This document shows, in pieces, positions 8,993 to 27,207 of a DNA stretch of 37,991 bases. Numbering within the stretch: the stretch's first letter is position 1; every line of letters starts with the position of its first letter. Below the pieces are notes generated by a model. That model searched no databases and was not told the DNA's origin. It saw nothing but the letters and a program-made list of their open reading frames with translations. A program made the position numbers and the translations under genes. Origin of the DNA: Sphingomonadales bacterium (GTDB lineage Bacteria > Pseudomonadota > Alphaproteobacteria > Sphingomonadales > Sphingomonadaceae); NCBI GenBank assembly GCA_013297725.1, contig JAAFIB010000020.1:1-37991 (forward strand), given 5' to 3'.

Positions 8993-9013
8993 CCTCTCCC
9001 CTTGCGGGAGAGG
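8993..9013. terminator. Hairpin after the MaoC gene
   Basis: CCTCTCCC (8993-9000) pairs perfectly with GGGAGAGG (9006-9013) around a 5-base loop, just after the MaoC stop. There is no T-run on the plus strand, so it may stabilise an mRNA end rather than act as a classical terminator. The stem resembles the outer part of the larger palindrome at 27104-27170, suggesting a dispersed repeat. Confidence 0.4.
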
Positions 9014-9031: not shown

Positions 9032-9104
9032 CACCGTTAGCCCTGAGCCTGTCGAAGGGCGTTTATCTGCTAGACGTGCTTCGACAGGCTCAGCACTGAC
9101 GGTG
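9032..9104. repeat. Inverted pair of a CCCTGAGCCTGTCGAAG repeat
   Basis: Bases 9032-9057 and the reverse complement of 9079-9104 agree at most of 26 positions, both reading CACCGT, then CTGAGCCTGTCGAAG. The arms flank only 21 bases. The outer end (ACCGT), core and inner end (GGGCGTTTA) are the same as in the repeats framing the GIY-YIG gene at 15635-16037, so this is a nuclease-less version of that structure. Confidence 0.8.
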
Positions 9105-15634: not shown

Positions 15635-15656
15635 ACCGTAGCCCTGAGCTTGTCGA
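15635..15656 (+). repeat. Left inverted repeat framing the GIY-YIG gene
   Basis: Twenty-two bases beginning ACCGTAGCCCTGAGC are the exact reverse complement of 16016-16037. After the core the arm reads GCCGAAGGCC...GTGAAC, then GGCGCTTACAG, whereas the right arm goes directly to GGGCGTTTACAG. The left arm therefore looks like the same repeat with about 23 extra bases. Confidence 0.9.
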
Positions 15657-15720
15657 GCCGAAGGCCACCGAAGGTGAACGGCGCTTACAGGTTTACGCAA
15701 GTGTTATGACCGTCGACTGG

Positions 15721-16008
15721 ATGTTTCATTGTTATATGCTGCAATGCATGGATGGAACATATTATGTTGGTCACACGGACAATCTTGATACTAGATTTGC
15801 GCAACATCAATCGGGATTCTTTACTGGGCATACTTTCAAACGTCGGCCTGTGGTTCTGGTTTGGAACGAAACGTTTCAAACGCGTGAAGATGCAAAAGCT
15901 GTAGAAAAGCAAATCAAGGGCTGGAGCAGAGCAAAAAAGGAAGCACTGATCGCAGGTGATTGGCTGCTAGTTTCGAAACTCGCCAGATGCCGAAGCGTGA
16001 CACTGTAA
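15721..16008 (+). CDS. GIY-YIG nuclease family protein
   Basis: 95 residues, a lone GIY-YIG domain. CYMLQC and YYVGH replace the GIY and YIG strands, TRFAQHQSG carries the catalytic Arg, and AKAVEKQIKGWSRAKK carries the metal-binding Glu. Single-domain members (COG2827/URI type) are putative DNA endonucleases of unknown biological target. The start is uncertain: ATG 15721 (MFHCYML) gives the usual family N-terminus; ATG 15706 adds five residues; the frame stays open back to 15622 through the left repeat. The stop comes 7 bases before the right inverted repeat. It is flanked by perfect 22-bp inverted repeats. Confidence 0.85.
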   Translation: MFHCYMLQCMDGTYYVGHTDNLDTRFAQHQSGFFTGHTFKRRPVVLVWNETFQTREDAKAVEKQIKGWSRAKKEALIAGDWLLVSKLARCRSVTL

Positions 16009-16015
16009 ACGCCCT

Positions 16016-16037
16016 TCGACAAGCTCAGGGCTACGGT
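16016..16037 (-). repeat. Right inverted repeat framing the GIY-YIG gene
   Basis: Exact reverse complement of 15635-15656 over 22 bases. Read on the minus strand it continues into AGGGCGTTTACAG, which overlaps the end of the nuclease gene. The inner GGGCGTTTA is also present in the 9032-9104 copy. Confidence 0.9.
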
Positions 16038-27057: not shown

Positions 27058-27103
27058 GTCCTGCGTTCCGCTAAAGAGCGTTATGTTTTAATTAGTCCGC
27101 ACT

Positions 27104-27170
27104 GGCCCTCTCCCCCACCCGACCACTCATGACCCTAAAATGTTTGGGTGGTCGGGTGGGGGAGAGGGCC
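27104..27170. repeat. Perfect 23-bp inverted repeat before the FKBP gene
   Basis: Bases 27104-27126 and 27148-27170 are exact reverse complements (GGCCCTCTCCCCC...CGACCAC and back) around a 21-base loop that includes TCATGA. A C-G and a T-G pair extend it outward. It lies 37 bases before the FKBP start codon. There is no T-run. It could be a dispersed repeat or a transcript-stabilising hairpin. Confidence 0.85.
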
Positions 27171-27207
27171 GGTGCGATGATCGTCCGAATGAAATGAGGA
27201 AAAATAT

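Follow-up and report, generated by a model that had tools for sequence, protein, structure and literature searches.

Palindromic repeats and their enzymes

The bacterial repeats known as REPs comprise GTAG repeats, whose partners are the RAYT proteins, and CGTC repeats, which apparently have no dedicated transposase (Di Nocera 2013, PMC3733652). According to that paper, CGTC repeats have a stem of 8-9 bp, AT at its base, a loop of 4-5 nt and mostly a CCA tail, form head-to-head pairs, were found not to flank tyrosine transposases, have been reported from five phyla and, as a superfamily, include the dRS3 repeats of Neisseria and the RPE repeats of Rickettsia. For the GIY-YIG domain, PMC1564403 names a central Arg and a C-terminal Glu. 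No paper tying GIY-YIG proteins to bacterial palindromic repeats was found among the literature matches listed (most subscription papers and preprints lay outside the scope of the search), and the word ‘nuclease’ does not occur in the main text of the 2025 REP survey (PMC12306157).

A nuclease gene between inverted palindromes

The locus considered here lies in the window (i.e. the whole stretch of 37,991 nt that was analysed) and consists of a GIY-YIG gene enclosed by two inverted copies of a palindrome (repeat A), which recurs elsewhere in the window without the gene:

9032..9104 (strand not assigned): miniature element without the nuclease, made up of a tag (9032-9040), a palindrome (9041-9059), a linker (9060-9075), a second palindrome whose stem is compensated (9076-9096) and a further tag (9097-9104)
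15635..16037 (+): the complete 403-bp unit, in which the GIY-YIG gene stands between the left and right palindromes; its ends are ACCGTAG...CTACGGT
15635..15656 (+): left arm, consisting of the outer tag and the palindrome's outer half (from the inverted-repeat scan)
15706..16008 (+): gene for the 100-aa GIY-YIG nuclease (its in-frame ATG is at 15706, its stop at 16006-16008)
16012..16037 (-): right palindrome (CCCTGAGCTTGTCGAAGGG, 16012-16030) and its tag (16031-16037)

A preliminary description of this DNA had read the 22-nt arms (15635-15656 and 16016-16037) as exact reverse complements and the enclosed frame as a GIY-YIG nuclease, and both readings were confirmed (PF01541 match, 3.7e-16). 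By a simple estimate for one comparison of 150 x 150 nt, an exact arm pair of this length has a chance of ~1e-9, and among the 39 window ORFs scored only the GIY-YIG ORF reached the threshold for flanking inverted repeats. The perfect match is restricted to the outer 22 nt, the inner half of the left palindrome (to ~15667) being degenerate (CGAGCCGAAGG in place of CGAAGGG). The stop codon had been placed 7 bases from the right arm, which is correct for the 22-nt arm but not for the right palindrome, whose start at 16012 is 3 bases past the stop; the further remark that the left arm is in frame with the ORF carries no weight (the frame has its first ATG at 15706, within the unit, and before that point it is open and nothing more). 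The ends of the unit resemble those of the miniature elements, and its right arm, taken alone, folds no better than shuffled sequences (z -0.85). Elsewhere in the window, a 32-nt inverted repeat (129-160 / 362-393, 97% complementary, 201 nt apart) is situated near the contig start, and hairpins with CTCTCCC/GGGAGAG stems are found at 8994-9012 and 27098-27176, one of them directly adjoining the miniature element.

The palindrome and its miniature elements

As had been supposed, the repeat is dispersed: the window genome (a 3.02-Mb draft in 148 contigs, of which the window is contig 62) holds 25 exact CCC..GGG copies (reversed control 0), and 85 copies of the 15-nt repeat A core, divided 43 to 42 between the strands. 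A second inverted copy lies within ~80 nt of 22 of the 25 exact copies (judged by eye; one of the 22 is degenerate), the remaining three being the window unit and two single copies. The pairs typically end in ACCGTTAG...CTAACGGT; both ends were scored for 21 pairs across all loci, and the 14 listed span 71-93 bp. The nuclease-less inverted pair that had been proposed at 9032-9104 is real (34-nt arms, 82% complementary), and its 71 inner bases fold as single-stranded DNA with a z of -8.3. The suggestion that the repeat is very common in sphingomonads has to be tempered, as its distribution is patchy (core in 123 of 199 genomes of the window's family).

Between the two halves of a pair, the outer stem often shows compensating changes (CCCT/AGGG versus GTGCT/AGCAC). 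Among 205 copies of core type T1, Watson-Crick pairing was found 202 times at stem pair 1, 198 times at pair 2 and 187 times at pair 3, counted from the fixed core (shuffled means 177, 107 and 69), which indicates that pairing was kept through changes on both sides, with the caveat that these copies are related to each other. The fourth pair was marginal (151 versus a shuffled 135), and pairs 5 and 6 were not conserved as pairs in these copies, which implies that the stem ends there. With a CCGTAG/CCGTTAG tag and a fold of 5-bp stem and 11-nt loop, repeat A of the window does not meet the description of the CGTC superfamily (tag, stem and loop all differ).

Other GIY-YIG genes of the genome and the nuclease fold

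PF01541 matched three frames in the genome: the window gene, a gene on contig C35 and a 654-aa frame that we take to be UvrC. The C35 gene (locus L010, ~1318-1838) is the only other lone GIY-YIG gene found and is boxed by inverted copies of a CGTC-tagged palindrome, CGTCACCCTGAACTTGTTTCAGGGTCCA (repeat B); both lone GIY-YIG genes found in this genome are, in other words, boxed, each by its own palindrome type. Repeat B folds as single-stranded DNA with a z of -3.4, and the genome contains 17 exact copies of its 19-nt core (control 0). The C35 gene adjoins ruvA, and a third repeat B copy is found just upstream. No Y1_Tnp domain was detected in the window genome by a search that was positive in 5 of 14 control genomes, and a RAYT was accordingly ruled out as the enzyme there.

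Among 66 aligned sequences, the invariant or nearly invariant positions include Tyr9, Tyr19, Gly21, Arg29, His33 and Glu66, all of which are present in the window protein; it thus has the domain with catalytic Tyr, Tyr, Arg and Glu positions that marks the GIY-YIG superfamily. Its AlphaFold2 model (mean pLDDT 82.5, residues 86-99 poor) retrieved with Foldseek the UPF0213 proteins 1zg2 (E 4e-6) and 1ywl (E 1e-3) first, followed by entries for Slx1 (E 0.03-0.08) and for the N-domain of UvrC (E 0.2-0.3). The substrate of Slx1 is branched DNA, and the likeness suggests, by analogy and without demonstration, that the GIY-YIG nuclease may cut hairpins or cruciforms. NCBIfam had no family for the window ORF and gave only weak matches for some of 16 related proteins (the B clade, see below); the single PADLOC match was weak (E 0.0088) and was not used.

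Palindromes around relatives of the window nuclease

The window nuclease had matches in 135 of the 199 family genomes, of which the 92 scoring at least 69 bits (in 62 genomes; the next scores fall to ~51 bits) were defined as the A clade, and 90 of these were taken in (two partial ones were left out). Units were called boxed when an inverted repeat of score 15 or more linked the two 150-nt flanks. By this measure 74 of the 90 A-clade units were boxed and 16 fell below the threshold; in the same loci, 2 of 120 shifted positions and none of 18 other ORFs reached it. When left and right flanks were swapped between units, 23 of 90 reached the threshold, because the repeat families are common to many units. 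The flanks carried cores of type T1 (46), T2 (26), T3 (9) or T4 (4), or none (5), and on the nuclease tree these types required 16 changes (shuffled mean 39; none of 200 shuffles as low). The internal support of this tree is weak, since only 95 columns were available, and near-copies favour the type-matching test.

The relatives of the C35 gene (B clade) were boxed in 14 of 22 loci within the window's family. Further loci were gathered with a profile of 16 B-clade proteins, which had at least 576 confirmed relatives in named genomes (the best 80 of these were kept), and by searching 398 genomes from the phylum, 188 of which had a match (30 loci were retained); of these 110 loci one, at a contig end, was dropped. 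Boxing was found in 83 of the 109 scored (60 of 79 among the named ones), the other 26 being below the threshold, versus 2 of 350 shifted positions and 2 of 153 other ORFs (for both clades, 2 of 171 other ORFs). The B loci are mostly from Pseudomonadota, with a few from other phyla, and many come from bins; the boxed ones include records titled Planctomycetota (L313), Leptolyngbya (L315), Candidatus Rifleibacterium (L322) and, twice, Deltaproteobacteria (L297, L321), and those below the threshold include Elusimicrobia, Anaerolineae, Nitrospirae, Myxococcota and a second Planctomycetota (L300). That a nuclease gene is boxed by dispersed palindromes is an observation both real and general.

Repeat B and many B-clade flanks fit the description of the CGTC superfamily (tag, stem, AT base, loop, CCA tail and pairing). 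A strict test called for a perfect hairpin with a GTC tag no more than 150 nt away. Of the 131 B rows (109 + 22, two places occurring twice), 59 passed it on both flanks and 28 on a single flank, and among 352 control windows 1 did so; in the 59, the tags pointed outward in 37, inward in 8, the same way in 13 and otherwise in 1. Loop class, which could be assigned to 76 of the 131 rows, changed 7 times on the (weakly supported) B-clade tree, versus a mean of 18.5 and a minimum of 13 in 200 shuffles. On sequence comparison, palindrome type follows the nuclease subclade in both clades. Moreover, for three species with CGTC repeats according to PMC3733652 (Azospirillum lipoferum, Novosphingobium aromaticivorans and Sinorhizobium meliloti), each of the three plasmid records read has a GIY-YIG gene between such palindromes. 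In N. aromaticivorans the palindromes lack both the AT at the base and the CCA tail, and in S. meliloti the tag of the right copy is preceded by an additional base. On the A. lipoferum plasmid AZO_p3 (L392) the unit is placed between sufB and sufC, which are usually adjacent. In a record labelled Neisseria gonorrhoeae DSM 9188 (L304), a GIY-YIG gene is framed by ATTCCCGC...GCGGGAAT repeats of dRS3-like appearance.

Repeat number tracks the nuclease

The preliminary description had named a correlation between repeat number and nuclease presence as a check of its proposal, and this correlation was found: the median number of cores was 25 in the 62 genomes with an A-clade gene and 0 in the 137 without (Mann-Whitney p 1e-13), and the mean was higher with the nuclease in 23 of the 27 genera holding both states (within-genus permutation p 2e-4). 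After subtraction of 4 copies per unit the relation persisted (19.5 versus 0, p 3e-9; 21 genera higher, 4 lower and 2 ties, permutation p 4e-4). Fewer than 5 cores occurred in 14 of the 62 nuclease genomes (cores of other types box several of the units in these genomes), and 15 genomes had at least 20 cores and no A-clade nuclease. Y1_Tnp was present in 31 of the 199 family genomes; across all 199, the median was 5 cores with it and 1 without (p 0.019), and within genera no link with repeat number was detected (p 0.38).

Boundaries and presence/absence of units

Similar units occur at unrelated sites, with homology mostly ending at the outer tag on the left and less clearly so on the right. 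Among unit pairs with at least 70% protein identity, 202 of 291 had no common flank (blastn; some flanks were short). In 184 pairs, which are not independent, 66 of 128 left homology ends fell within 5 nt of the tag and 87 within 10 nt, with 6 more than 10 nt beyond it and 35 inside; of 143 right ends, 61 were within 10 nt of the tag, 7 beyond it and 75 inside the unit. On two contigs of one Gammaproteobacteria bin (L303/L324, proteins 93% identical) homology ends 1 and 0 nt from the tags, and it ends within 1 nt of them on both sides in L045/L049, L207/L223 and L059/L063. Within one complete Sphingomonas chromosome (L292/L307, proteins 94% identical) it stops near the right tag and continues for ~67 nt beyond the left one. 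No excess of target-site duplications over shuffled pairs was seen for 21 A and 30 B elements.

The finding of the gene at the window locus in relatives without flanking repeats would have spoken against the original proposal; at 29 orthologous loci, the 1.5 kb next to the ABC transporter gene never contained the nuclease gene, be it with repeats or without. These relatives, which are also too distant (75% DNA identity), consequently yielded no exact boundary at the window site. In genome G215, a miniature CGTC element (L099) directly follows the ABC transporter gene whose window ortholog precedes the A unit.

Presence and absence were compared on Sphingobium and Shinella plasmids. Seven Sphingobium plasmids (four were read) have the gene between fnrL and a response regulator. 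At this site TomTYG64 has one doubly tagged palindrome, equivalent to the outer halves of both arms fused, TomTYG74 has a palindrome of the same type with two changes, and three other strains have neither unit nor doubly tagged palindrome. Plasmid pTomTYG72a (L384) shows at the unit's site a hairpin similar to the CTCTCCC/GGGAGAG type, and in pTomTYG73a (L377) the nuclease gene is one base shorter than its relatives (a frameshift), both palindromes being kept. The gene is present in each of the Rhizobium records L379, L380 and L391. Overall, doubly tagged palindromes were found at 8 loci, three of which represent one site in related genomes, and singly tagged ones numbered 256.

At the ruvA site, three close species have the B unit and three lack it. 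The missing stretch (578 bp, TCACC at both ends) is longer than the unit, and the window genome also carries the unit there, for which reasons gain and loss cannot be told apart; another indel likewise exceeds its element. In the close pair G206/G207 the element compared is common to both and thus uninformative, and in the cluster G137/G209/G213 the repeat core was at the partner's site in 25 of 31 element comparisons, and the indels there did not match an element in size. One intergenic site holds a B element in G137 (L144) and an unrelated CCCGGCGCAGGCCGGGATCCAG-type palindrome in G209 (C4), and is perhaps an insertion hot spot.

A proposed nuclease-driven repeat element

The initial proposal was an autonomous unit with a nuclease-less derivative, akin to REP/RAYT and with a GIY-YIG enzyme in place of the transposase. 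Our data support it, inasmuch as repeat number tracks the nuclease and the derivative is one of a family of short inverted pairs, and they extend it by a second nuclease clade that is paired with CGTC-tagged repeats; binding or cutting of the hairpin and movement of the unit were not demonstrated. Support for the pairing of nuclease and palindrome appears about as good as comparison allows, resting on anatomy, conserved hairpin pairing, type matching, correlation in number and units at unrelated sites, and we regard a functional partnership of the two as highly probable. Type matching, correlation and tag-bounded units have as their simplest reading that the enzyme drives the spread of the repeat, which we consider likely (an inference made without transposition data). 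The unit would then probably be the autonomous form of a small repeat-based mobile element, with the GIY-YIG nuclease, which is all that it encodes, as the dedicated partner of the palindrome and the short pairs as nuclease-less forms.

We envisage that the palindrome would form a hairpin or cruciform when single-stranded or supercoiled, that the nuclease would recognise stem, loop and outer tag and cut there, and that the break would be repaired against another copy, whereby the tag-to-tag stretch (linker or nuclease gene) would be moved to a new place; the short inverted pairs could use the enzyme in trans. No biochemical data exist for binding, cleavage or the break-and-copy step, all of which are inferred. 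Since GIY-YIG enzymes are hydrolytic and target-site duplications are lacking, break-and-copy is favoured and a DDE-type step disfavoured; as the choice over any other chemistry, it is put forward only tentatively.

It is conceivable, if unlikely, that the nuclease co-evolves with the repeats and sits beside them without spreading them. Slx1 is listed by Foldseek after UPF0213 (E 0.03-0.08), type matching would fit recognition for any purpose, and cores at the partner's site in 25 of 31 close-species comparisons imply that repeats are largely inherited; however, units stand at unrelated sites with homology ending at the tags, the gene is enclosed by the inverted pair (the arrangement of an element that has ends) and nuclease presence is patchy within genera. 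Very improbable, in our judgement, is a nuclease without any role, a passenger brought near the palindromes by the tendency of both palindromes and small foreign genes to gather in intergenic space: such an account can draw on the sites that hold different palindromes in different strains (certain intergenic sites would be hot spots) and on the 15 core-rich genomes without an A-clade gene, but it is at odds with the 2 of 171 boxed ORFs of other kinds, with type matching and with the within-genus correlation.

That a Y1/HUH transposase (RAYT) moves the repeats, the GIY-YIG gene being cargo or helper, is scarcely tenable given the absence of Y1_Tnp from the window genome and of any within-genus link, together with the report (PMC3733652) that CGTC repeats do not flank tyrosine transposases, even if the window copy has GTAG letters beside its stem (the tag of RAYT-linked repeats) and the 31 family genomes with Y1_Tnp have somewhat more cores. 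The doubly tagged palindromes raise a different prospect, namely a homing-type parasite for which such a single palindrome is the target, to be cut and to receive the unit by recombination, with miniature pairs as decayed occupied sites. Consistent with it are the fused outer halves in TomTYG64 (in TomTYG74 they show two changes), an A element that has collapsed in a comparable way and the 8 loci noted above; yet deletion between stem repeats gives the same product, three other strains have no such palindrome at the site, and doubly tagged forms are rare beside the 256 singly tagged ones, and we consider it improbable without discarding it.

Returning to a nuclease that spreads its own palindrome, small GIY-YIG nucleases could be the missing dedicated enzymes of the CGTC-tagged and the related CCGTTCG/CCGTTAG-tagged repeats at large, a generalization that may as easily fail as hold: a minimal autonomous unit (~400 bp, a single enzyme of 100 aa), accompanied by many derivatives without the nuclease, would operate by hairpin cleavage and break repair, without transposase chemistry. 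Should GIY-YIG nucleases spread CGTC repeats, the widespread and usually unexplained ‘GIY-YIG nuclease family protein’ would gain a function and REP-type elements a second independent origin, and the question would be directly testable with one small protein and one oligonucleotide. To our knowledge, such a unit would also rank among the smallest autonomous mobile units.

Comparison with known systems

The target-site duplication that characterizes DDE insertion sequences and MITEs showed no excess in the 21 A and 30 B elements. Slx1, the UvrC N-domain and UPF0213 share the fold of the unit's enzyme and differ in being host repair proteins or uncharacterised; we know of no repeats associated with them. 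GIY-YIG homing endonucleases (I-TevI, the T4 Seg genes) are likewise mobile genes with a single GIY-YIG enzyme, and one strain comparison fits a reading of empty and occupied sites, whereas the present enzyme has only 100 aa, with no separate DNA-binding domain seen, and the unit has many dispersed sites and nuclease-less derivatives. With the CGTC superfamily, as described in PMC3733652, many B-clade flanks have in common the GTC tag, the A-T stem base, the CCA tail and the head-to-head pairing; no dedicated transposase is reported there, while here a GIY-YIG gene lies between the inverted copies in 83 of 109 loci. REP/RAYT systems (REPtron, REPIN) resemble the unit in their scattered, tagged palindromes (often in inverted pairs), in an enzyme gene flanked by these palindromes and in repeat families matched to enzyme types, and differ from it in that the enzyme of the unit is GIY-YIG instead of a Y1/HUH transposase (no Y1_Tnp in the genome) and in that the gene replaces the linker inside the inverted pair. 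On this reading the unit operates in the manner of a REPtron, yet it is not one, as it lacks the Y1 enzyme that defines them.
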